Origin: Planctomycetes bacterium syqfu
GTDB lineage: Bacteria > Planctomycetota > Phycisphaerae > Phycisphaerales > Phycisphaeraceae
Length of the DNA stretch: 64,000 nt
NCBI GenBank assembly: GCA_020974905.1
Contig: CP087563.1
Location: 2,294,001-2,358,000 of the forward strand
Reading direction: 5' to 3'
In this document: positions 17,133 to 31,221 of the stretch, one piece after another
Layout: every line of letters starts with the position of its first letter
Position numbering within the stretch: position 1 is the stretch's first letter
The notes under the pieces: model-generated
Databases searched by the model: none
What the model was told of the DNA's origin: nothing
What the model saw: only the letters and a program-made list of their open reading frames with translations
Translations under genes and position numbers: made by a program

Positions 17133-17762
17133 TTATTCTGCTGAAACAACTTTGAAATTCTCAAGTCGAGCCGCAGCACCGTTACTTAATCGCAAACCCA
17201 CACCACCTTGAGACATCTTGCCATAGGCTTCTTCAATGATGAGTTGATCGTCGATGAAACACTGCATAGTTTCATCCTCCACGACTACACGAAGCTGATA
17301 CCACTTGCCGTCTTCCAAAGGTTTAATATCCTTGGTCTTAAGCTTGCGCCACACAGGATCGACGGCATGAAGCACTGCCGTATTGTCACGAACACTGAAT
17401 ATCATGCCGGTGAAATAAATCGGATGCCTTGCCTTTGGGGGCGAACCATGAAAAATCAATCCAAGATTGCGTAGCTGGTCTTTAATGAATTGAAACTGCA
17501 CAGTGACGGTGTAGTTGCTCCACGCAGGTTGATCAAGCATCAACATGCCATTCTTGCCTGCATCAGCTTTGGCGTGAAGCACGCCCTCTTTCAACTGCCA
17601 CTCTGCGAAATTTTCACCCGGAATACGCATGAGCCAATGCGCATTCATTTCGGCCTGGTCAAAGCAATCTTCAAACAGAACCTGCTTAGAATTCGAAGTG
17701 TCTGCACGCAGCTGGACTGCGTTGCACATTAAAAAAAGCCCTAAAAAACAAACATATTTCAT
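17133..17762 (-). CDS. Secreted DUF1080-like (3-keto-disaccharide hydrolase family) protein
   Basis: A 209-residue protein with a signal peptide (residues 1-20, MKYVCFLGLFLMCNAVQLRA). The rest is a concanavalin-A-like beta-sandwich of the DUF1080 kind: LFEDCFDQAEMNAHW, FAEWQLKEGVLHAK, GLIFHGSP, then GKWYQLRVVVEDETMQCFID and LRLSNGAAARLENFKV. Members of this family include hydrolases that cleave 3-keto-glycosides. The start ATG (17760-17762) overlaps the upstream stop as ATGA, so translation is coupled. The protein is shorter than many family members and may only bind carbohydrate. Confidence 0.78.
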   Translation of the reverse strand: MKYVCFLGLFLMCNAVQLRADTSNSKQVLFEDCFDQAEMNAHWLMRIPGENFAEWQLKEGVLHAKADAGKNGMLMLDQPAWSNYTVTVQFQFIKDQLRNLGLIFHGSPPKARHPIYFTGMIFSVRDNTAVLHAVDPVWRKLKTKDIKPLEDGKWYQLRVVVEDETMQCFIDDQLIIEEAYGKMSQGGVGLRLSNGAAARLENFKVVSAE

Positions 17763-19816
17763 GGCTGTGCAACTCCACCATTGAGAATATAAACTTTAAC
17801 TGCAAATGGCGCCCATGTGGTTCGCCATGATTGCTTGGCAACGGCCTGCACTTGACCTGCCAATGAAGAAATACGGGTTTGTGATTTATCGATCAAAGGT
17901 GATGAGACACTTGCTTCGATAGGGTGATCCGTTGGATTGACCGTCAGCAGATAATGATGTTTCTGATCTGCGATGAGCCGGCAGTACAATTTACCACCAT
18001 CGGTTTTAACCGTGTATTGCTGAGCAATATCCGGTCCGGTCAAGGCAACTGAAAGACCTTGGATTTCTTTGCCGATTTCCAGTGTCATCTCGTAAAAAGC
18101 TGCATCGGTTTTCTGTAATGAACCGCCCATTTCCTCACAGGTGTATGCAAAGAACAACATTCCCTTGACGCCGTGAGTTAACGCCAGATAGATCATGCAG
18201 CGTCCTTCATCGAGCGTTGGCATACGCCCCCCATGTTTGAATGAACCATAGGTTTGGACAGCAAACCAGACTGGCTTTTTACGGTCGACTGCTTTGTGTG
18301 CTTCCTCGATGTAGTCAGCGATCACAGTGATTGGCTTACTGGGAACGGGATAGCAATCCACGCCGAAGATGTCACAGGCAGATGCATACTGCTTAAACAA
18401 TTTGGGTTCGCTATTAAGTAAAAACACGGGTAAATCAGGTGCCGCCTGTTTGACAGCGTGATACATATCCTCTGCGTTTTCCGGCGATATGCCATAGTTC
18501 TGCGGTTCATCCGCCAGGTACCATGCCCAGAGATTGGGATGCTCCTTGAACTGGCGAACGACCTTTTTTAAATGTCCTCTCAAAAAGCGACGGGCTGCAT
18601 AATCTTCATGAGGCAACAATCCGATGCCACTGTTCTGAGCCTGTTGCAGATGTGTGCGAATCACATCCATCGTCGGGCGATAGTTGGTCACCTCTGCACA
18701 GTTAAATCCAGCAGATTTCAGTGATGAATAAGTACCAGGTGGTTGGCGATAAAAAATCAAGGGGAAGACCTTTTTCCCATTGATGACCAAGGCATGGTCC
18801 TTGTCAATGTAACGGTGCGAAGGCTCGCTTGATGGATCTGCGGTTAAATCACTTTCACGAACAAGTACTGTCCGACCCACTGTTGCGGGTTGATAGCCTT
18901 GCATTTCAAGTGTCACACGCAACTCAGCGGGGCCGGGCTGGTCGACTTGATATGGAATCGAGACCATTTGTTCGTGATCTGCACTGAGTTGAACAGTCGT
19001 GGTCTGACGTGTTGCGCTTTGGCTTGAATTGATGACGCTGCTGTGTAATGACGCTTTTCCGATGATGGCCTGTTCGTTGATTAGACGAATTTCAGCAGTA
19101 TTCGTACCCACCTGACGTTGCCCGACATCCAGAATTTCGACACCCGGTGCAAAGCGGCTGTTGCCAATTTGAGGTTCAATAATGCGGAAAGCTTCAGGGC
19201 GATGAAAGCCATTTTTCATGCCTTGGATACTGCTGTATTCGACCGTTGGTTTTTGCGATGTGCGGGCAAGATTCATCGCCCAGACATTGCCGGCCATTGG
19301 GAAATTGCTCAGTGGGATACGCACTTCCACCTGCCATCCCGTCGGAGTGATACCGGTGGCAACGGTGATACCAAGCGCGTTCCAATTCTTGTGTACGCCA
19401 ATTTCATTGGGGCGACAGAGTTGGTCAAAGACCATGCCCCGTGGATTGACGATGAAATGGTAATATTCAGAGCGACTTTGAATCGGCTTGAAAAATATCT
19501 CCACACAATCATCAAACCACAATGTGCCATCACGCGTTTGGATTGTGCTTTGTAGCGAAGCAGTATCCGAGTCTGTACAGTCAAAGGCAAGGTACAGGTT
19601 CTGCTGATCAAAACCAAACCAGGCTTGCGTGGGCTTATTGGGTTGATCCTGATCGGGGATAGTTGTGATGAACCGATCAAAGTGCTTTGCCTGCTGCCAT
19701 TCACCGTGGGTAAGCTTGCCATCAATCACAGGTGGCTGTGACATCGGCGTGACTGCAAGAAGCATTGCTGGAAGCAGCAAGTGCAACAACATCATGAGGA
19801 ACGTCTTTTGAATCAT
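17759..19816 (-). CDS. Secreted CBM9-like domain plus TIM-barrel putative glycoside hydrolase
   Basis: A 685-residue protein with a signal peptide (MIQKTFLMMLLHLLLPAMLLAV is its core). Residues about 28-215 form a CBM9/DOMON-like domain (VIDGKLTHGEWQQAKHFDRF, WFDDCVEIFF). A middle beta domain follows, and from about 345 a TIM-barrel-like region (FPLIFYRQPPGTYSSLKSAGFN, FKEHPNLWAWYLADEPQ, DIFGVDCYPVP, THGVKGMLFFAYTCEE). The Glu in ADEP is a candidate acid/base at the end of a strand, as in clan GH-A. No known family number could be assigned. The frame is open upstream to 19957, but ATG 19816 starts the signal peptide and lies 17 bases after the preceding gene's stop, with AGG upstream. Confidence 0.8.
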   Translation of the reverse strand: MIQKTFLMMLLHLLLPAMLLAVTPMSQPPVIDGKLTHGEWQQAKHFDRFITTIPDQDQPNKPTQAWFGFDQQNLYLAFDCTDSDTASLQSTIQTRDGTLWFDDCVEIFFKPIQSRSEYYHFIVNPRGMVFDQLCRPNEIGVHKNWNALGITVATGITPTGWQVEVRIPLSNFPMAGNVWAMNLARTSQKPTVEYSSIQGMKNGFHRPEAFRIIEPQIGNSRFAPGVEILDVGQRQVGTNTAEIRLINEQAIIGKASLHSSVINSSQSATRQTTTVQLSADHEQMVSIPYQVDQPGPAELRVTLEMQGYQPATVGRTVLVRESDLTADPSSEPSHRYIDKDHALVINGKKVFPLIFYRQPPGTYSSLKSAGFNCAEVTNYRPTMDVIRTHLQQAQNSGIGLLPHEDYAARRFLRGHLKKVVRQFKEHPNLWAWYLADEPQNYGISPENAEDMYHAVKQAAPDLPVFLLNSEPKLFKQYASACDIFGVDCYPVPSKPITVIADYIEEAHKAVDRKKPVWFAVQTYGSFKHGGRMPTLDEGRCMIYLALTHGVKGMLFFAYTCEEMGGSLQKTDAAFYEMTLEIGKEIQGLSVALTGPDIAQQYTVKTDGGKLYCRLIADQKHHYLLTVNPTDHPIEASVSSPLIDKSQTRISSLAGQVQAVAKQSWRTTWAPFAVKVYILNGGVAQP

Positions 19817-19832
19817 GGTCAACCTGTGATTG

Positions 19833-21218
19833 TTAGTCTGCGTTCGATGCAGAGTTGGTGGCCGCCTGCCATGGGGTTTGGGCGATGTTAATATTGTCCT
19901 GGATGACGAATGCTTCCTTGACAGGTGCTTTGAGTACGACACGCGCTTCATTGCCACCCATCCATGTATTGCTTTTGAGGATCAGGTCGGACGTGGGCTG
20001 CCAGACGGTGACGATCGCATCGCTTTGGCTGAGCTTGCCGTGGGCCGTGTTATTTTGCACGATCACATGATTGGCATTGTGTGCGATGCTGATCATGTTT
20101 CCCTTGTCGGGACCGTGCGTGCCGTCGATTTTGAATTGATTGCCCATGATGGTGACATGGCTGATGGGGTCCGGTGAAGCTGACCAGGGGCGCCCGACGC
20201 AGATTTCCCCATTCATGGGTGTGTCGACACTTCGACAGTTGTTCACAAACAGATTGCCTTCAACAAGGACGCGGTCACAACCATTTTTCTGTTGAGCACT
20301 AAAACCAATGAGCAGACCCCATGCAGCTGAATCTTCAATGATGTTGCCCCGGACAACGACATTGCTGCAGCCGACGACATCAATGCCTGATCCGTTGGTT
20401 GTGCCACGGGAGATGTTGTTGGCAATGAGAATGTTGTTGCAGCGCCCGTTGGCAAGGTACGGCGCGTCATGGCTTCGGATGGAGGTGTTATTGACGATCT
20501 GACAATCTTCGCTACGCGAAAAACCGATCCCCGATGAGTCCTGTACATGGTTGTGAGCGATGATAGCCTGCTTCTGGTATTGCATGCCGATGGCCTGCCC
20601 GCCGCCACTGATGACGGTGCAGTTGATCACACGATTACCCACGTAAAGATTGGTATCACCGGGCGCCCCCAACGCCGAAACGCCTTGCCATCGGAGATTG
20701 GGCTGCTTGGCGATCCACCCTGTGTAGGTCCCGGTACCGTTGCCATCGAAATTCAATCCATCGACGGTGCAGTAATTGGCACGATTGATCAGCACGCCCG
20801 ACCAATACCATTCATGACCGTTCTTCATCCCCTTGGTGTAGTCCAGCCCCTTGATCACTTTGATCACGCCATCACAGGTAACTTTGCTGTAATCGTTAGC
20901 AAGATGGATCAACGCCTTGGTGCGCAGGATACCCGGGGAGAGTTCAATCTTGGGCATCTTCAACGGGTTAACCATGTACACACCTGAAGGGATATGCACA
21001 TGGATCGGGCCGGTGGTTTGAGCCATGACCTTGTGCATGCGATTAAACGCCTCGGAGTCATCGGTTTTCCCGTCGCCGGTGGCACCAAAGTCCATCGGGT
21101 TGAGTTTCAATGTCGCTTGCGACGGCTTGTTGTTCGATGGGTCTGCAAGGAGTTGATTTGTTTGCATGCCCAGCAGACAAGTGACCATCAAACAGCCGAG
21201 AATTGATCGGTTAAACAT
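19833..21218 (-). CDS. Secreted pectate-lyase-superfamily beta-helix protein
   Basis: A 461-residue protein with a signal peptide (MFNRSILGCLMVTCLLGM). The motif LNPMDFGATGDGKTDDSEAF near residue 42 is the classic opening of the pectate_lyase_3/GH28-like beta-helix. Many coils with stacked Asn follow (IIAHNHVQDSSGIGFSRSE, NNILIANNISRGT). No GH28 catalytic Asp pair was recognised, so the activity is uncertain; lyase, epimerase or hydrolase on an acidic glycan are options. ATG 21218 is preferred to an upstream TTG because it begins the signal peptide. It follows the pseudopilin by 26 bases. Confidence 0.84.
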   Translation of the reverse strand: MFNRSILGCLMVTCLLGMQTNQLLADPSNNKPSQATLKLNPMDFGATGDGKTDDSEAFNRMHKVMAQTTGPIHVHIPSGVYMVNPLKMPKIELSPGILRTKALIHLANDYSKVTCDGVIKVIKGLDYTKGMKNGHEWYWSGVLINRANYCTVDGLNFDGNGTGTYTGWIAKQPNLRWQGVSALGAPGDTNLYVGNRVINCTVISGGGQAIGMQYQKQAIIAHNHVQDSSGIGFSRSEDCQIVNNTSIRSHDAPYLANGRCNNILIANNISRGTTNGSGIDVVGCSNVVVRGNIIEDSAAWGLLIGFSAQQKNGCDRVLVEGNLFVNNCRSVDTPMNGEICVGRPWSASPDPISHVTIMGNQFKIDGTHGPDKGNMISIAHNANHVIVQNNTAHGKLSQSDAIVTVWQPTSDLILKSNTWMGGNEARVVLKAPVKEAFVIQDNINIAQTPWQAATNSASNAD

Positions 21219-21244
21219 GAGTAAAATCCATGATATGCTTGAAA

Positions 21245-21901
21245 TCAATTTTCCGAAACCGTGAAGTAACGCAGTTGGCCATCGGTTCGCGAGTGCATCG
21301 CCAAAGGTAGTGAATTCAACTCGTCCTTGGTCCCGGTTCGTACGCGTCCATCCCCCATCAACAAGTTGGCACTCTTGGCGTGATGTGCGTAGATGGCATA
21401 GATGCTGTCGGTTGGCGAATTGACGCCGTAGATCAGATACGTCTGAATCACACGACCGGCATTGGGGTCCTGTACCGAGTCTGCAAGAAGAATCTTGTCG
21501 GTTGGTTCAGCATCAAAACTCCCGAAGATAAAGTCCAGGTGATCGCCGCCGTTGCGTGACAGTGTGCCATACGTGGTGTACTTGGAGTAGACCGGCGCCG
21601 GGTGCATGGACGGGCACTGAAACGCCTTGTCAGTGTCGATATACTGACCGCCTAGCAGATACTCCGACCAAGTCTTGGTGAGATTGTTGGGCGGCAGCAG
21701 CATCTCGTTGTCATTGAAGTACGAGTAATGTGCCACACCGTTTTGTCTGAGATTGCTCTGACATCGCGTGGCCATGGCACGGTCTCGTGCTGCTCCCAAT
21801 GCCGGCAAGAGAATCGAAATCAGTAACGCGATAATCGAAATCACCACCAGCAATTCAATGAGTGTGAATCCCCCTGGCCGTCTGGAGCTTATCTGTTTCA
21901 T
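21245..21901 (-). CDS. H-X9-DG type pseudopilin-like protein
   Basis: A 218-residue protein. The leader MKQISSRRPGG precedes the prepilin motif [18 protein letters not shown], and the C-terminal signature is HAKSANLLMGDG. ATG 21901 has AAAGGA six bases upstream; an upstream in-frame start would lengthen the leader by 13 residues without a better site. It is first in a leftward operon with beta-helix, CBM9, DUF1080 and DUF4038 genes, so its expression is tied to glycan use. Confidence 0.88.
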   Translation of the reverse strand: MKQISSRRPGGFTLIELLVVISIIALLISILLPALGAARDRAMATRCQSNLRQNGVAHYSYFNDNEMLLPPNNLTKTWSEYLLGGQYIDTDKAFQCPSMHPAPVYSKYTTYGTLSRNGGDHLDFIFGSFDAEPTDKILLADSVQDPNAGRVIQTYLIYGVNSPTDSIYAIYAHHAKSANLLMGDGRVRTGTKDELNSLPLAMHSRTDGQLRYFTVSEN

Positions 21902-22170
21902 ATCGTTTCCTTTGACTATCTGAACGCGATCATCATTCATTCTGAGTTCAAGTGTGTCTTACCGCGACAGCGTTGTGGCTTCATTCAATCACAGTCACAT
22001 CCATCATTGCGGGACATTCAGTTTAAACCTTGCCACCCCATCTTCTGAGCACAATCAACGCCGATTTACAATTTGCCAATCTCAAGCGTCATGCAAACCG
22101 ACCAGCAGGGGCGGACAAAGGCCCATGCCGCGATGTATCGCCACGACAAACTTCATGGCGGCACAAACAA

Positions 22171-22196
22171 CATACAACTTGACAATAGACATACAA
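22171..22196 (-). promoter_or_regulatory. Pair of TTGTATG half-sites at the pseudopilin promoter
   Basis: On the minus strand TTGTATG occurs at 22190-22196 and at 22171-22177, 19 bases apart as direct repeats, with shared flanking bases. One copy lies between the candidate -35 and -10 boxes and the other near the expected transcription start. This is a candidate operator for the adjacent GntR/LacI regulator. Confidence 0.5.
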
Positions 22197-22210
22197 GCTT
22201 GAGTTGTCAA
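22182..22210 (-). promoter_or_regulatory. Putative promoter of the leftward glycan operon
   Basis: On the minus strand TTGACA (22205-22210) and TATTGT (22182-22187) are separated by 17 bases. The first gene starts 280 bases downstream, which implies a long untranslated leader. TTGACAA (22179-22185) and TTGTCAA (22204-22210) also form an inverted repeat here. Confidence 0.4.
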
Positions 22211-22424
22211 CGATAATTAATTGGCAAAAATGGATTTTTTTTCACCCCAGCAAAGTAGACTCCTTGCACCAAACAAATCTCAACATGCATTAATAATTAA
22301 TTTTAAAACCTTTAAACGAAATTTCTCATGCCAAAAACATAAACCACCACCATCAGACGCTCCCAGTCCTATTGGCCTAAAAGCGATAAAACAGATGGGA
22401 CACACCAAAAACGAACACCAACCA

Positions 22425-22454
22425 TTGACACGGACCCAAATCACTTGTATGATC
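22425..22454 (+). promoter_or_regulatory. Strong sigma-70-like promoter of the GntR/LacI operon
   Basis: TTGACA at 22425-22430 and TATGAT at 22449-22454 are 18 bases apart and close to consensus. Transcription would start near 22461, about 44 bases before the regulator start. Confidence 0.65.
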
Positions 22455-22474
22455 TTTTTGACTAGATTGTATGT
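22446..22474 (+). promoter_or_regulatory. Pair of TTGTATG half-sites over the GntR/LacI promoter
   Basis: TTGTATG occurs at 22446-22452, overlapping the -10 box, and at 22468-22474, just past the expected start. A repressor bound here would block transcription, consistent with autoregulation. The half-site resembles those bound by GntR-type winged helices. Confidence 0.5.
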
Positions 22475-22504
22475 TCACCCACCCACTCGCCCCGGAGGTG
22501 TCAC

Positions 22505-23686
22505 TTGGCTTCACGCACCATGCTTGATTCAGAAAATGAAAAAGCGGCCACACAAGGCAAGCTTAAACACGACATCCTTGTGGATACGCTTAAGACCCAG
22601 ATTCGTTCCGGCCGTTACAAAGTCGGCGACAAGCTGCCCAGCGAACATGAACTGGCACGGGATCTGGATGTGAGTCGTCATACCATTTTGCGTGGGCTTT
22701 CAACACTTGCAGCAGAAGGCTGGATTGACCGTCAACAAGGTCGCGGCACATTCGTTGCCAAACGATCCAATCCCACGCACATCGGCAACCAGGTCATCGC
22801 ATTCATCTGTAGCGACAAGGGGGACTCGGTCATCAGTCGTGTCATCCGTGGCATCAGTCAGGCCCTGCGATCCCGCCGACAGGAAATGCTGCTGCTGGAT
22901 TCAGATCACAGCGTTGAACGCGAACGTGAACTGCTTGAGAGTCTTGTTGATCGTGGCGTTGGGGGTGCGATTCTCTGGCCGGTGACGTCCGGCGAAAATC
23001 GTCAGGCCATCGAACAACTTCAAAGCCAGGACTTCCCGCTGGTGATGATCGACCATGGCATGGACAACTCAACTGTCCCACTTGTTTGTGTGGATCATGA
23101 ATTGGGTGCGTATGAAGTAACGCGGCATCTGGTGCGTTGTGGCTACAAACGCATCGCGCACATCACCTTTGCAGGCTTGCCCGGTGAACTCAGCGAAGCT
23201 GTACTCGAACGTGAAGCAGGTTATCGCCGTGCACTCGATGAAGCAGGCCTGTCCTTTGATGACGAATTGATTCAGCGCGTGGACCGCAACCTAATGCGTT
23301 TATCACATGAGCCGATGGTGCGCGAAATGCTGGCATACGAACAGGCACACCGCCTGATGGCCTCGGACAATCGGCCTGATGCGATTTTTCTGCTCAATGA
23401 TATTTTTGCGCCAAGTGTGTATCGCGCAGCGCTCAACCAAGGTATGCAAATTCGCAAGGATGTTGCGATCGCTGGATTCAACAATGACCCTGAAGCGTGC
23501 ATGTTGCCAGTGCCGATGACGACGTATGACTTACCTTCCGAACAGGTAGGATTCCAGTCCATTGAGCTACTCAACAAATTGGTTGCCAACCAACCCATCA
23601 CCGATCAAACCACGCGCATTGCAGGCCAGTTGATGGTTCGCAATTCGACCGTGGAAAATATTGCAGCTTATTGCCAGGGCATTTAA
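22505..23686 (+). CDS. GntR/LacI-hybrid transcriptional regulator
   Basis: A 393-residue regulator joining a GntR winged helix (about residues 22-90; VGDKLPSEHELARDLDVSRH, EGWIDRQQGRGTFVAK) to a LacI-type sugar sensor (about 97-390; VIAFICSDKGDSVISRVIRG, GGAILWP, DAIFLLNDIFAPS). This is the AraR architecture. The likely start is TTG 22505, because GGAGG lies six bases upstream; ATG 22520 would be 21 bases from it. It is first in an operon with oxidoreductases and a GH92 enzyme, and likely senses a sugar from that pathway. TTGTATG repeats in both flanking promoters are candidate binding sites. Confidence 0.9.
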   Translation: MASRTMLDSENEKAATQGKLKHDILVDTLKTQIRSGRYKVGDKLPSEHELARDLDVSRHTILRGLSTLAAEGWIDRQQGRGTFVAKRSNPTHIGNQVIAFICSDKGDSVISRVIRGISQALRSRRQEMLLLDSDHSVERERELLESLVDRGVGGAILWPVTSGENRQAIEQLQSQDFPLVMIDHGMDNSTVPLVCVDHELGAYEVTRHLVRCGYKRIAHITFAGLPGELSEAVLEREAGYRRALDEAGLSFDDELIQRVDRNLMRLSHEPMVREMLAYEQAHRLMASDNRPDAIFLLNDIFAPSVYRAALNQGMQIRKDVAIAGFNNDPEACMLPVPMTTYDLPSEQVGFQSIELLNKLVANQPITDQTTRIAGQLMVRNSTVENIAAYCQGI

Positions 23687-23740
23687 ATCGATGCGTTTCC
23701 CCTGATTTCAAGGCATTTTCACCCGTTAGCATGAGACTTG

Positions 23741-24945
23741 ATGATGTGTGATGATTTACAAATCGCAGTGATAGGTGTTGGCGGACGTGGCGGTGTTGCA
23801 GACTACGCCCATCGCCCAGGCAAAGGCAGTCGTTTGGTTGCCGGCGCCGACATCAATTCCGATGCGCTTCGTGCCTTTGCCAAACGAATCGATTCCGACG
23901 TCTCGTTGTATGACGACTATCGGCAGATGCTTGATCGACGCGACATAGATGCGGTGTTCATCACATCGCCGGACTTCTGTCATGAGGAACATGCGGTAGC
24001 AGCATTGGAAGCAGGCAAGGCAGTCTATCTGGAGAAACCCATCGCCATCGACATTGCCGGTTGCGACCGCATTCTGGAAGCTGCGTATCGTAGTCGTTCA
24101 AAGCTTTACGTGGGTCACAACATGCGTCACATGCCGTTTGTCTTGAAAATGAAACAGCTCATCGATGATGGGCGTATCGGTCAGGTCAAAGCCATCTGGG
24201 TCCGTCACTTCATCTCCTACGGCGGTGAAGCCTACTTCAAAGACTGGCATGCGGAGCGTCGTTTTTCCAACAGTCTGCTTTTGCAAAAAGGCGCTCACGA
24301 TATCGACATCATTCACATGCTCGGTGGCGGGTACACGCAGCGTGTCCATGCCATGGGCGCACTGACGGTGTATGGCGATGTCACGGATCGACGCAAGCCC
24401 GAGGAAAAACCGCAGATTCGCAGCATCCCTGACCTCTGGCCCCCAGCGCACAAACAGGACTCAATCCAACCATTGATGTCGAAGACCTGAGCATGATGCA
24501 GATGCAACTGGATAACGGCGTCTTTGCCAGCTATCAGCAATGCCACTACACCCCCGATGCCTGGCGGAACTACACCGTCATCGGCACGGAAGGTCGCATT
24601 GAGAACTACGGGGACTATGCAGGTGATGTTGAAATTCGCATCTGGAATAAACCACCGGACTACAAGGAACGTGGTGATGAACAATATGCCTTAACGGGTA
24701 ACATCAAATCACATGGTGGTGCGGACCCCAAAATCGTTGCTGAGTTTTTGCAGTTTGTGCGTGGCGAGATCCAGCCATCCGTCAGTCCGATTGATGCACG
24801 TTACAGCGTGGCTGCAGGTTGTCTGGCAACGCAGTCACTACGTCTCGATGGACGCGTAATGCAAATGCCAAACGTGCCAGAGTCTTGGAAGAACGCATTG
24901 CGATATTCTCTTGATCAACCATCCAACACGTTGGAGGTGCAGTAA
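23741..24945 (+). pseudogene. Gfo/Idh/MocA oxidoreductase interrupted by a frameshift
   Basis: The first frame (to a stop at 24488-24490) gives a Rossmann N terminus (IAVIGVGGRGGVADYA), the catalytic-site motif EKPIAID near residue 109 and the start of the alpha/beta domain. It ends abnormally after DLWPP. The rest of the family's C-terminal domain continues in another frame to 24945 (PTIDVEDLSMMQMQLDNGV, YTVIGTEGRIENYGDY). The frames meet at a run of five C at 24440-24444; a sixth C would restore one continuous protein of about 400 residues. Everything else is well preserved, so this is a very recent mutation, a sequencing error, or less likely programmed slippage. Family members use NAD(P) to oxidise sugars or sugar derivatives. 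The start is ATG 23741, with a weak ribosome-binding site. Confidence 0.85.
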
Positions 24946-24946
24946 C

Positions 24947-27130
24947 ATGCTTCAACGTCAAACCGCGCATCCAACCAGCACGCTTCAACTAGCCAACATT
25001 TTTCAAGGCAGTGATTCCACGTTCGACCTGTCCACGGGCAATACCTATCCAGCAATGACGATGCCCTGGGGCATGACCTGCTGGTCGGCTCAAACCCGCG
25101 AAGGCAAATGGTTTTATCACCACCATGATCCCAAATTTCAGGGCCTACGTGCGACACATCAACCCTCACCCTGGATCGGCGATTACGGTCAGATGGTGCT
25201 GATGCCCATCACGGGTAAACCCTGCATCTCAGCCGAAAAACGCAGCAGCACTTATCAATGGGACATGCATCAAACCGGTCCCGGCGGTGGTGCAGTACGC
25301 TTGCAACGATACGGCATTGACATGCGATGGGCGGTGACGCAACGCGGCTGCGTGACTGCCATGCACTATCGCCACGATAAGCAGCCGGGCATGATACTCG
25401 AACTACCCGAAGGTGTTGGCCAGATCAGCATTGAACCGCAGCACCGCCGTGTCCATTGCACCACCCATGCCAATCACGGCGGTGTCCTGCCGAACTTTGC
25501 CTGTCACTATGTGATCCAATTCGATTGCCCCATCAAGTCATTTGGCAGTGGTTCAACCGAGCATTGCGTGATGACGCAGCGATCCCATGGCGGTGACAAC
25601 ATCGCTGCCTACGTGCAATTCGAGCCCAACGCGGCATCCACTGTCACGGCACGCATCGCAAGCTCGTTTATCAGTTCACAACAGGCAATGCTCAATCTGA
25701 ATCGTGAACTTGCTGGCCAAACACTTGAGCAAATCCGCACACAAGCCGATGCATGTTGGCAGAAGCTTTTTGACCACATCGACATTCAAACACAAGACGC
25801 GACCATTCGTCGGACGTTTTACACTGCGCTTTACCGCAGTCTGCTTTTCCCACGCGGCCTGCATGAAGTTGATGAACACGGCAAGCTTCATCACTACAGC
25901 CCCTACGACGACAAAGTCCACCCCGGCCTGCTGTACACCGATCAAGGCTTTTGGGATGTGCATCGTACGCTTTACCCTCTGTTATCAGTGGTGTATCCGC
26001 AAGAATACAGCCAGCTACTTCAGGGATGGCTTAACGCCTATCGCGAAGGAGGGTGGTTACCCAAGTGGGCCAGTCCCGGGTATCGCAACGCCATGTGTGG
26101 CTCGCATGCCGAAGCCGTTTTTGCCGACGCCATTGTCAAAGGTACAGCAGATATCGATCATGAACTTGCCTACCAGGCCATCGTCCAAAGCGCGACGCAG
26201 TTTGGTGATGCTGCAGGCACCTACGGTCGCAACGGCATCAATGATTATCTGAAGCTTGGCTATGTCCCCGAAGACCGCGTGCATCACGGCGTCTCCGAGA
26301 CGTTGGACTTTGCTTACTGTGATTACACCATCAGTCAGGCGGCGCGGGCACTTGGCAAGCTCGATGACGCAAAACATTTTGCTCAACGCGCCCTAAACTA
26401 CCGCAACTTGTTTGATCACCAAACCGGCTATTTTCGTGGGAAAAATGCCGATGGCAGTTGGGTTGAGCCGTTTGATCCCTATGACTGGGGCGGACCCTAT
26501 TGCGAAGGTTGTGCCAATCATTATCTCTGGGCAGTTCCACACGACCCGCAGGGATTGGCGGAACTGCTCGGCAGCAATGACATGTTGGTTGAGCGCATGC
26601 AAGCCATGCTCATGGACGACCCGCGATTTAACATTGGTGGCTATGACTACGAGATTCACGAGATGACTGAAATGGCGCGCGTGCCGTTTGGCCAGTATGC
26701 ACACTGCAACCAACCCGTGCATCACATGCTGTATCTGTTGGCACATGCTGGTGCGCCTGAGAAAACCAATGCCTGGGTGCGGCGTGTCCTCACTGAGTTG
26801 TACACCCCTGCCTCACTGCCTGGCGATGAAGACAATGGTGAGATGTCGGCATGGTACGTCCTTAGCGCTTTGGGGTTCTACCCGACCTGTCTTGCCAGTG
26901 GGCAGTACACGCTTGGTATGCCGTTGATTGAAAAAGCAACGTTGCTCACCGGCCCGTCATGCACCGTCCATCTTCACAATCAATTGTCATATACCCATAA
27001 ATTACCTGGGCAGTTTCAAGTCAATGGTCTGCCGCACTCCTCAATCACGATCGATCATGCTCAGCTTGTTCAAGGCTGTGATCTGACTTATAGCCTCAAC
27101 GAACCGGCCATGAAAACCATACCGCAATAA
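24947..27130 (+). CDS. GH92 family alpha-mannosidase, no signal peptide
   Basis: A 727-residue protein. N-terminal GH92 hallmarks are FDLSTGNTYPAMTMPWGM and the WFYHHHDPKFQGLRATH region. The catalytic (alpha/alpha)6 domain shows GFWDVHRTLYPLLS, MCGSHAEAVFADA, NQPVHHMLYLLAHAG and GDEDNGEMSAWYVLSALGFY; the last holds the family's conserved acidic residues. GH92 enzymes are calcium-dependent exo-alpha-mannosidases. Known members are mostly secreted, but no signal peptide is visible here, so this one may act in the cytoplasm on imported oligosaccharide. ATG 24947 follows the upstream stop by one base and has GGAGG nine bases before it. Confidence 0.9.
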   Translation: MLQRQTAHPTSTLQLANIFQGSDSTFDLSTGNTYPAMTMPWGMTCWSAQTREGKWFYHHHDPKFQGLRATHQPSPWIGDYGQMVLMPITGKPCISAEKRSSTYQWDMHQTGPGGGAVRLQRYGIDMRWAVTQRGCVTAMHYRHDKQPGMILELPEGVGQISIEPQHRRVHCTTHANHGGVLPNFACHYVIQFDCPIKSFGSGSTEHCVMTQRSHGGDNIAAYVQFEPNAASTVTARIASSFISSQQAMLNLNRELAGQTLEQIRTQADACWQKLFDHIDIQTQDATIRRTFYTALYRSLLFPRGLHEVDEHGKLHHYSPYDDKVHPGLLYTDQGFWDVHRTLYPLLSVVYPQEYSQLLQGWLNAYREGGWLPKWASPGYRNAMCGSHAEAVFADAIVKGTADIDHELAYQAIVQSATQFGDAAGTYGRNGINDYLKLGYVPEDRVHHGVSETLDFAYCDYTISQAARALGKLDDAKHFAQRALNYRNLFDHQTGYFRGKNADGSWVEPFDPYDWGGPYCEGCANHYLWAVPHDPQGLAELLGSNDMLVERMQAMLMDDPRFNIGGYDYEIHEMTEMARVPFGQYAHCNQPVHHMLYLLAHAGAPEKTNAWVRRVLTELYTPASLPGDEDNGEMSAWYVLSALGFYPTCLASGQYTLGMPLIEKATLLTGPSCTVHLHNQLSYTHKLPGQFQVNGLPHSSITIDHAQLVQGCDLTYSLNEPAMKTIPQ

Positions 27131-27196
27131 CCATTATTGATTGCGGGATAAAACGTATTGATGTTTGAAACCAAGACGATTATTAGGAATATGAAC

Positions 27197-28234
27197 ATGT
27201 CTACTACGGAACCCGGGATACTTCGGGTCGGCCAAATCGGCTGTCATGGCGTGGCAAACAACCATGCCAAAGCGCATCGCTGGACCGGTAACACACAGTT
27301 GCATTCCGTCTGTGACATCAACGAATCATTGGCACAGTCCTTTGCTGAGCAATATGACGTCAAACACTATTTCACATCGGCTCAGCAAATGTTTGAATGC
27401 CCGAACATTGACCTGATTGACCTGGTCACACCGGATCATACCCATGCGTCACTGGCAATTGCAGCCATGGAACATGGCAAACATGTCCTGGTCGAAAAAC
27501 CCATGGCCACCAATACTGATGACGCAAAGCTGATGATTGAAGTTGCCCAACATAACAAAGTGCAACTCATGTGCGTCCAATCAACGCGCTGGGTTCCCAA
27601 GTGCCGGGACATCGTCAAACGTGTACACAGTGGTGATATTGGTGAGCCGGTCTTTGCGCGTATGCATGGTGGCTGCCCTTCATTCTGGCGTCCAGACCAT
27701 TGGCCTAAAGCAGCCTCGGAAGGTGAGGTCGATCACCTGCTGGTCCACAATGCCATGCACTCGTTGGACCTCCTGAGTTGGCTGCTGGATGACCAACCTC
27801 AAAACGTCTACACCATGGGACATCCGGGCCAGGAAGGTGTTCCTCTGTGGGAGTACTTTTCAATTAATGTCCGCTTTGCCAAGGGCGCGATAGGACTGTT
27901 TGAAGAGAACCGGATGATGCAGCCCAAAGCATATTCCATGCCAGGGACGGGACTGCATATCATCGGCACCGAAGGCACCATTGTGATGTCGCCCTCCAAA
28001 GATTTGAGTGTGAGTCTGTTCAACAAGGATGGTATGCATTTCCCTGGGTCACATATGTACCTCACCCCCGAGGAAGACAATTTTGCTGCGATGATCCGTG
28101 AGTTGGCTGATGCGATCATGCAAGAGGAATCCGTTCCCATTTCCCCCCAATTTTCACGACATGTTCTTGCAGGTGTCCTTGCTGCTGTTGAGTCATTCCG
28201 TTCCGGTCAGCCTGTGGAGGTGAACCATGACTAA
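27197..28234 (+). CDS. Gfo/Idh/MocA family oxidoreductase
   Basis: A 345-residue NAD(P)-dependent enzyme. The nucleotide-binding start is LRVGQIGCHGVANNHAKAH, followed by DLVTPDHTHASLAIAAMEHG and the catalytic-site motif VEKPMATN. The C-terminal domain has HNAMHSLDLLSWLLDD and IIGTEGTIVMSP. It probably oxidises or reduces a sugar at C1 or C3. ATG 27197 is chosen because AGGA lies eight bases upstream; in-frame ATGs at 27161 and 27191 are less well placed. Its end overlaps the next gene by eight bases. Confidence 0.88.
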   Translation: MSTTEPGILRVGQIGCHGVANNHAKAHRWTGNTQLHSVCDINESLAQSFAEQYDVKHYFTSAQQMFECPNIDLIDLVTPDHTHASLAIAAMEHGKHVLVEKPMATNTDDAKLMIEVAQHNKVQLMCVQSTRWVPKCRDIVKRVHSGDIGEPVFARMHGGCPSFWRPDHWPKAASEGEVDHLLVHNAMHSLDLLSWLLDDQPQNVYTMGHPGQEGVPLWEYFSINVRFAKGAIGLFEENRMMQPKAYSMPGTGLHIIGTEGTIVMSPSKDLSVSLFNKDGMHFPGSHMYLTPEEDNFAAMIRELADAIMQEESVPISPQFSRHVLAGVLAAVESFRSGQPVEVNHD

Positions 28235-29258
28235 GCCGTTACAAATCGCATTGATCAGTTTCTCATATGGCCATCAAATGGACTATGGTCGCCTGCTTGC
28301 TGAGCACCCCCAAACGCAGCTTGTTGCGATTGGTGATGTGCCGGGCATAACGGAGGAAGCGCGCAAGGTTGCCAGTGATTTTGCAGCATCACGCAACGTG
28401 CCGTATTACGCGGACTATCGCCAGATGCTTGAGCAACAAACGATTGATGCGGTGAGTATCGCAGTATCACCAAGCCAGAATCCATCCGTGGTCATCGCAT
28501 GCGCCAAGCAAGGCATTGATGTTCTGTGCGAAAAACCGGTCGCCAGCAACAATGATGATTTGGATCAATTGGCAAAGGCAGTCCGCGAATCAGGTATCCG
28601 TTTCACGGCAGCCATCCCTGGCACGGTCTTTTCCAATGCGTTTCGTCCTGCGATCGAACAGGTGACACAAGGCGCTATCGGAACGCCGTATGCCGCCCAC
28701 TTCCAATTCCTTCAGCCACGTGGCCCGCAGTACATTCTCACCGAGGAACAATGTACCAGCGAAAAACGTGGCGAGTTAGCCAACTTCGGACCCTATGGCA
28801 TCCTGGCCATGCTCAAATTCTTTGGTCGAAAGATTACGCATGTCTTCGCCCGAATGGATGCCATGTTCTACGAGCGATATCGGAAGCATGGTGTTGAAGA
28901 CATGGCCTTGTTAAGTTTGACCTTTGAAGGTGGCGGTATTGGTACACTGCTTGTTGGCCGTACCACGACCCAAACGCAGCTGGCCACCGATTGTGCCATG
29001 CAGGTCATCGGCAGCGAAGGTGTACTTAACATTGAACAAGGATTGGGATACGGCTACACCTGTTACCAACAGGAACAAGCACGCTTCATTCCATATGGCA
29101 TGAGTGCAGGCCAATGCTTTGTCAACGATTTCGTCAAAGCCATTCAAACCAATTCGGAGCCAACCATCACACTTGAACATATCATCAATTGTTTTCGCGT
29201 TCTGGATGCAGCTTATCAATCATGTCGTGAAAACAAAGTCGTATCTATTTTGATGTAA
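28227..29258 (+). CDS. Gfo/Idh/MocA family oxidoreductase
   Basis: A 343-residue relative of the preceding gene but clearly divergent. It has QIALISFSYGHQMDYGRLL at the N terminus, where the usual Gly-rich loop is weak, then VSIAVSPSQNPSVVIACAKQ and the motif CEKPVASNND near residue 103. The C-terminal domain has FGPYGILAMLKFFG and QVIGSEGVLNIEQ. The atypical nucleotide loop makes cofactor binding less certain. ATG 28227 has GGAGG six bases upstream and overlaps the previous gene. It closes the operon. Confidence 0.85.
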   Translation: MTKPLQIALISFSYGHQMDYGRLLAEHPQTQLVAIGDVPGITEEARKVASDFAASRNVPYYADYRQMLEQQTIDAVSIAVSPSQNPSVVIACAKQGIDVLCEKPVASNNDDLDQLAKAVRESGIRFTAAIPGTVFSNAFRPAIEQVTQGAIGTPYAAHFQFLQPRGPQYILTEEQCTSEKRGELANFGPYGILAMLKFFGRKITHVFARMDAMFYERYRKHGVEDMALLSLTFEGGGIGTLLVGRTTTQTQLATDCAMQVIGSEGVLNIEQGLGYGYTCYQQEQARFIPYGMSAGQCFVNDFVKAIQTNSEPTITLEHIINCFRVLDAAYQSCRENKVVSILM

Positions 29259-29436: not shown

Positions 29437-31221
29437 TTAAAAATCCACGATTGTGGCATTTGCTGAGCCATCACTAATCACAGTAGCCGCTGTATATGTT
29501 CCATTGCTGATAACATACTCGTTATAGACGAATCGCGATGCCTGGGCAGAAGCATCGATCAACACACAATAAGATGCACCGGATGCGGCACTGAGTTCGG
29601 CCTGGGCTACCAGTATGCGACGGCACCATGCATCAAGCGTCAGTGCCTGCGCAGTAGTGGTCGATTGAATCAAACCTCCCTGTACGCGAGCAACCAACCG
29701 CGTCAAATTACCGTTGGTTGTTGAGCCCCGTAAACTCAATCCACCACCGGCACCAATAAAATGGTTGCCTATCAGAGAGATGTTGTAAGCACCATCAATG
29801 CGCCCAGCTGGACCGTATTGATCCGTTGTTTTGAAAATGCCATTCGAAACAACAAAGTCCGATCTTGAATTGGATATATTTTCCTGCAAACGCAAAGCAT
29901 TACTTCCCGACGATTCATACACGCCACCGGTAATGTTGACGCGATCACAACCCAGTGCAATATGTAAAGCAATGTCTGCACAATTGAGCATGACATTGTC
30001 GGCGATCACCACATCCTGACAATTCTTGATGACGATACCTTTAAACGTCTGCGAATTCTTTGAAATGTTGTTGGCAATGACCACGCCATACAAGGTTCCA
30101 GCTGATGTATCGACATCAGCTTCGATTATACTTTCTGAGATATCGGTAAATTGACAATTCACCACGGTAAATCCATGCATATCAACGGTGTCTTCAACCA
30201 AAGGAGAAACATATGCCACGCCTTCGGACGAGCAATTGGCAATCTTCACCCCATTGATACTGACGTTTTCAAGAAAATCATAGCCGTTATTGATTTGATT
30301 CTGATCAATCTCGACATCAATCCCAATAATGCTACCCGCAACACGGCCACCGGTGATGGCTATATTTCTCCCGGAGAGAACCGCGATGCCCTGACGTCTC
30401 CCTGAGACCGTGCCTGAACCACCGCCGTCGATGATGACGTTATTGATAATGACATCCTCACTGCCGTAGGCAATGTAAATACCATCACCACGACAGTTGT
30501 GAATGGTCGTACCATCAATGCGAACATTCGTTGCATGACGAATGTCAATACCGTGTGCATATTCAGTGGTATTGCCACCGGGCTTGTTATTACCACCATC
30601 AATTCGTCCACCTATTATTGCGATATTTTCAATGTGATTCGAAGGGCTTGATGAGGTGTCCGCGGCTATCGTTATTGCTCTGGTTAATACTGTGTGACGT
30701 GGAGCAAGTACGGCGTTTAAAGATTCAAATTCGAGTGTGATATTCGAATATCGAACCAACAAACCTTTTTGTAAGACACCGGTAATTGAATTGTTTTGTA
30801 GATAATATTCCCCATCCGGGATAAAGATTCTCCCCCCGCCTATCTCCCCAGCATATTCTACAGCACTCTGCATGGCAGACAAATCGTCAGTACTTCCGTC
30901 ACCTGTTGCACCAAACCACTTAACGTTGATGGCGGTGTCAGCCTGATTAAGCTGGCGTTCGAACTTATTGCCGGTGTTGTCGATGTAACGCGTGCCGTTG
31001 TTCTTGGTGGTCCATGAAGCACTGTTGTTTTTATAGAGCATTCCTCCGCCACCATCACCTGGCTGATCACGATAAAGCAGGTGAACATAATCATATGAAG
31101 ACAAGTTACTGCCCTCAATATCCGTTACGCCTTCTGCTTCAAAGATACTTGCTCCCAAAACAGTTCCCGGCAAACCAGCTAACATTACCAGAACCCATAC
31201 AATAACCAAAGAATGTCTCAC
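29437..31221 (-). CDS. Secreted pectate-lyase-superfamily beta-helix protein
   Basis: A 594-residue protein with a signal peptide (about residues 1-23, MRHSLVIVWVLVMLAGLPG). A short N-terminal region (HLLYRDQPGDGGGGMLYKNN) precedes VKWFGATGDGSTDDLSAMQS near 100, the pectate_lyase_3 signature. Repeated coils run to the C terminus (IEGSNL, DVIINNVIIDGGGSG, VVIANNISKNSQT). This arrangement resembles tailspike-like or glycan-active beta-helices. The catalytic residues were not identified. The start is GTG 31221, supported by AAGGA seven bases upstream and by the signal peptide beginning there. Confidence 0.84.
   Translation of the reverse strand: MRHSLVIVWVLVMLAGLPGTVLGASIFEAEGVTDIEGSNLSSYDYVHLLYRDQPGDGGGGMLYKNNSASWTTKNNGTRYIDNTGNKFERQLNQADTAINVKWFGATGDGSTDDLSAMQSAVEYAGEIGGGRIFIPDGEYYLQNNSITGVLQKGLLVRYSNITLEFESLNAVLAPRHTVLTRAITIAADTSSSPSNHIENIAIIGGRIDGGNNKPGGNTTEYAHGIDIRHATNVRIDGTTIHNCRGDGIYIAYGSEDVIINNVIIDGGGSGTVSGRRQGIAVLSGRNIAITGGRVAGSIIGIDVEIDQNQINNGYDFLENVSINGVKIANCSSEGVAYVSPLVEDTVDMHGFTVVNCQFTDISESIIEADVDTSAGTLYGVVIANNISKNSQTFKGIVIKNCQDVVIADNVMLNCADIALHIALGCDRVNITGGVYESSGSNALRLQENISNSRSDFVVSNGIFKTTDQYGPAGRIDGAYNISLIGNHFIGAGGGLSLRGSTTNGNLTRLVARVQGGLIQSTTTAQALTLDAWCRRILVAQAELSAASGASYCVLIDASAQASRFVYNEYVISNGTYTAATVISDGSANATIVDF

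Follow-up and report, generated by a model that had tools for sequence, protein, structure and literature searches.

The window analysed here, a 64-kb stretch of a 7.38-Mb genome (G000), contains a regulator gene on the plus strand (22505-23686) that begins with TTG after GGAGGTG and faces away from a group of minus-strand genes. Its product carries a GntR winged helix at aa 26-84 (PF00392, E 3.5e-19) and a LacI-type periplasmic-binding-like sensor at about aa 96-382, with matches to the GalR/LacI-type families PF13377 (E 1e-22) and PF00532 (E 6.5e-20); these Pfam domains make the protein a GntR/LacI chimera, in line with the GntR/LacI regulator named in an earlier, sequence-only reading of the locus. 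The sensor matched 3tb6, the sensor domain of the arabinose repressor (E 6.2e-9), and the DNA-binding domain matched 4egy distantly (E 1.4e-7). The phmmer comparison with 4egy gave one stretch of equal length (query residues 12-70, chain residues 30-88), which places R58 of the regulator on R41 of AraR only if the chain numbering is taken to include a 20-residue tag. R41 of AraR is the recognition-helix arginine that contacts an operator G.

The leftward operon, as predicted, starts with a prepilin-like protein gene (N_methyl / DUF1559) at 21245-21901, listed as an open frame at 21245-21940 with 21901 as its probable start, followed by a gene for a pectate-lyase-like beta-helix protein (19833-21248). 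It probably continues through 17133-19957 with genes for a CBM9-domain protein (17759-19957) and a 3-keto-disaccharide-hydrolase-like protein (17133-17762), whose membership is suggested by strand and closeness. On the plus strand, the regulator gene is followed at 23738-29258 by genes for a Gfo/Idh oxidoreductase (in a broken frame), a GH92 glycosidase and two more Gfo/Idh proteins, all putative members of the same operon. The first Gfo/Idh gene (23738-24945) consists of two frames here (23738-24490 and 24493-24945) but of a single open frame in the congeneric genomes G003 and G001, which reflects either a frameshift in G000 or an assembly error. Among the neighbours searched, none was recognised as an arabinose gene, and the predicted functions of the neighbouring genes point to a glycan-derived inducer.

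A sequence scan confirmed the presence of four TTGTATG copies, two at each of two divergent promoters. The minus-strand copies lie at 22190-22196 and 22171-22177, exactly where the sequence-only reading had put them, while the plus-strand copies lie at 22445-22451 and 22467-22473, each one base lower than it had given. Both pairs, as had been claimed, cover core promoters, and these are sigma-70-like: a leftward promoter at 22182-22210 (minus strand, TTGACA-17-TATTGT) and a rightward promoter at 22425-22453 (plus strand, TTGACA-17-TATGAT), each with identical hexamers and spacing in G003 and G001. Left site 1 (22190-22196) falls inside the −35/−10 spacer of the leftward promoter, and left site 2 (22171-22177), at a distance of 19 nt, falls on the probable start of the leftward transcript. 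Right site 1 (22445-22451) overlaps the −10 hexamer TATGAT, and right site 2 (22467-22473), 22 nt away, lies in the putative 5′ untranslated leader. As the offset between sites and promoter differs between the two sides, the sites are not simply promoter parts; and since all four are located downstream of the −35 hexamers, their positions favour occlusion of RNA polymerase. The term half-site, used previously for TTGTATG, is an assumption: a copy may represent one half of a weak palindrome or else a unit of a direct repeat.

The leftward operon has a predicted leader of about 270 nt, with several invariant blocks inside 21902-22083, for example 22040-22056 and 22069-22083; a second promoter is possible there. 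An RNA element in this long leader was considered and rejected: no Rfam match was found within 21800-22700, the folding z-score was −1.09, and 26 of 200 shuffles folded equally well. Further invariant blocks were observed upstream of the plus-strand promoter (22379-22410), namely AAGCGATAAAA (22381-22391) and ACACACCAAAA (22400-22410), which are possibly the site of another regulator; a similar word, CGATAAAA, occurs upstream of the regulator gene in a diverged relative, G014.

To evaluate how unusual the four copies are, shuffled sequences were compared at several scales. The earlier statement that they are unlikely by chance stood for the word itself and not for words in general: among 3000 shuffles of the 304-nt stretch, TTGTATG never reached four copies, whereas some 7-mer with at least three different letters did so in 36; with the 604-nt intergenic region, that number rose to 236 of 3000. 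In the 64-kb window, four distinct 7-mers form such four-copy clusters, TTGTATG among them, and its 15 copies compare with 9.17 expected, a count reached in 5 of 100 shuffles; one of these copies (31196-31202) lies 7 codons into an ORF. With a 7-mer selected after the sequence had been read, a count of four is thus only mildly unusual, and by itself it is suggestive, not compelling, evidence for operators. Direct pairs of the form TTGTATG-N8..20-TTGTATG were rare, numbering three in the whole 7.38-Mb genome, two at the locus and the third inside a 911-codon frame (G000:C1:4863103).

Conservation, in our reading of the alignments, carries the case for operators that the copy count does not. Across the three congeneric genomes that hold the regulator (G000, G003 and G001), all 28 site columns were invariant, compared with 412 of the 575 other intergenic columns (hypergeometric p 1.2e-4), and left site 1, like the others, was preserved in 3/3. 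The longest invariant run among the 603 intergenic columns was 33 nt and spanned both left sites (22165-22197, minus strand, CTTGTATGTCTATTGTCAAGTTGTATGTTGTTT), which we regard as a candidate composite operator. When the four-site footprint was slid by +1, −1 or −2, it was likewise invariant in 28/28 columns, so the conserved blocks are slightly wider than the 7-mers. The spacings of 19 and 22 nt are kept in G000, G003 and G001, with no other such pairs in G003 and G001, and left site 1 and right site 1 start 255 nt apart in G000, 256 nt apart in G003 and 257 nt apart in G001. The spacer from left site 1 to the −35 hexamer has diverged among the congeners, whereas the sites are invariant. Part of this conservation is shared descent, because the congeners are close (regulator identity of 97% in G003 and 95% in G001), and that of right site 1 has another possible cause, since it coincides with the −10 hexamer. 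The absence of conserved sites in related genomes had been named as an outcome that would speak against operators; both congeners retain the sites and their spacing, and G014 does so more loosely.

G014 supplies the second of the two independent lineages in the comparison, the genus being the first. An orthologue of the regulator at E <= 1e-45 was found in 4 of 51 family genomes, the window's own included, and that of G014 (51% identity) is the only diverged one among the genomes searched; a contig scan revealed no further diverged orthologue among its best 80 loci, the top two (97 and 49%) apparently being those of G003 and G014 again and the next standing at 32%. The region upstream of the G014 regulator aligned with the left operator over 37 columns with a score of 37, the best of 1000 shuffles scoring 35. 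Its promoter, TTGACT-16-TATGCT, carries TTGTATG on the −10 hexamer, placed as right site 1 is in the window, and after this exact copy comes a degenerate unit, TTGTCAG; TTGTATG occurs once more 187 nt upstream. On the strand of the regulator and downstream of it, G014 encodes a relative of the pectate-lyase-like protein (47% over 419 aa); prepilin-like genes also occur at this locus. The divergent layout has changed in G014, and the regulator, the candidate operator and the pectate-lyase-like gene are still together.

We then counted a composite pattern, CTTGTATG-N9..16-TTGTNNG, which was designed from these sites, so that its matches in the congeners are partly by construction. Two matches were found in the 7.38 Mb of G000, both at the locus; both of the two in G001 and two of the four in G003 were also at the locus. 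The single genome-wide match in G014 lies in the promoter of the orthologous regulator; that match was known before the search, which adds the absence of any other in that genome. Forty-seven family genomes without an orthologue (E <= 1e-45) gave 10 matches in total, and a reversed control gave 18 over all 51 genomes, which indicates a chance rate of about 0.2-0.4 per genome.

The sites were observed directly, overlap promoter-like sequences, are conserved and nearly unique in each genome, and are linked to the orthologous regulator. From this we propose, with a probability of roughly 0.8, that the four TTGTATG copies constitute two operators through which the regulator encoded at 22505-23686 would repress both its own gene and the divergent operon, a sugar signal relieving this repression. 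Each operator would consist of two sites separated by about two helical turns (19 nt on the left and 22 nt on the right), a spacing that would put two protein units on nearly the same face of the DNA. We infer binding by this regulator, and repression rather than activation: once bound, it would cover the leftward promoter at its spacer and start region as well as the −10 hexamer and early leader of its own, keeping RNA polymerase off both and producing repression with autoregulation. A sugar or oligosaccharide derived from the polysaccharide handled by the flanking genes would presumably be the effector, binding the LacI-like domain and releasing the regulator from DNA. That the regulator probably controls both operons, within the boundaries predicted above, had been suggested before, and the site positions together with the pectate-lyase-like gene adjoining the regulator in G014 are consistent with it.

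The sites might instead belong to another regulator of the LacI/GntR type, of which the neighbouring regulator gene is merely one target, and other binders are plentiful, with 140 matches to the regulator at E <= 0.001 in G000. This is unlikely, as the composite operator is almost unique to the locus and follows the orthologue into G014, whereas a shared regulator would be expected to have more sites; in addition, the congener G002, which has no orthologue at E 1e-45, contained no direct TTGTATG pair, though its genome is only 78% complete. There is a slimmer chance that the regulator binds here and activates, or acts oppositely on the two operons: regulators can work either way and the C-terminal domain does not settle the direction, yet activation is at odds with all four copies sitting downstream of −35, the position of repressor sites. 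A reading without a dedicated operator, in which the copies are nothing more than conserved promoter elements or chance repeats, is very improbable, despite right site 1 containing part of the −10 TATGAT and despite the 36 of 3000 shuffles in which some 7-mer reached four copies, since the other three sites (both on the left, and right site 2) correspond to none of the hexamers of the promoters identified and are nevertheless invariant beside a diverged left spacer, and the 37-column match to the G014 promoter goes beyond what a −10 hexamer explains.

Repression through the two candidate operators has parallels among characterised systems. In the account of Bacillus subtilis AraR given in PMC4218819, paired in-phase operators are bound cooperatively at the ara promoters and the regulon includes the regulator's own gene; the candidate system likewise joins a GntR-type winged helix and a LacI-type sensor to paired in-phase sites at promoters for polysaccharide utilisation and, putatively, at its own gene. 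The AraR subfamily is described as a chimera of the GntR family with a LacI-type sensor (PMC4494728). The TTGTAY in the sites resembles half of the AraR consensus At(T/A)tGTaCGTAcaa(A/T)T, but the copies here are in direct-repeat orientation, 19 and 22 nt apart, and the AraR palindromic operator was absent: the sites matched an AraR-type 12-mer at 7-9 of 12 positions and its right half at 2-4 of 6, with only TTGTAY in common. Unlike most GntR-family operators, the sites are poor palindromes, which is compatible with either two dimers on two weak palindromes or units on direct repeats. Tentatively, and with much less confidence than the operator assignment itself, a regulator of AraR architecture may have given up the palindrome to read a TTGTATG direct repeat, and the two pairs, 255-257 bp apart, may be joined by looping, both promoters then switching together.

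FarR, NagQ and NanR are documented as having direct-repeat sites built on a TGTAT/TGGTAT-like word (PMC4494728), a feature shared with the sites here; those proteins, however, come from the HutC or FadR subfamilies, whose sensor domains are of other kinds, and their repeat words and organisms differ. The same source describes GntR-family sites as commonly lying between the regulator gene and a divergent operon (PMC4494728), and conserved sites occupy that very place in the window. As in such divergons, the regulator gene and the divergent operon share an intergenic region and have a site each, but here each site is a pair, and the AraR-type subfamily falls outside the survey described there. 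The best reading is therefore of what appears to be an ordinary genetic switch, newly located, whose only twist would be an operator built of direct repeats and poorly palindromic; it overturns no general principle. It assigns a specific, testable candidate operator to a regulator that has 140 matches in the same genome, and suggests that congener comparison can pair a local regulator with its site in Phycisphaerae, for which no regulon paper was found among open-licence PMC papers, the one paper returned concerning a verrucomicrobial isolate.

A search for extra regulon targets with TTGTATGNTCA gave 9 genome matches against 4 for the reversed control, and no target is claimed from it: one match is right site 2, 6 of the other 8 fall within frames that stay open for at least 100 codons, and those outside such frames are at G000:C1:914623 and 1020891. 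The 140 matches in G000 reflect a large set of LacI-like regulators, of which the 29 with loci were scored for AraR-like upstream sites, several having LacI-type rather than GntR-type DNA-binding domains. Two standouts among 29 tests are weak and nothing is drawn from them: L058, a LacI-type protein (0 of 60 shuffles), and L054, a GntR/LacI relative whose gene is preceded by a near-perfect AraR-like palindrome, TTGTATTTACAA (10/12, p 0.02).
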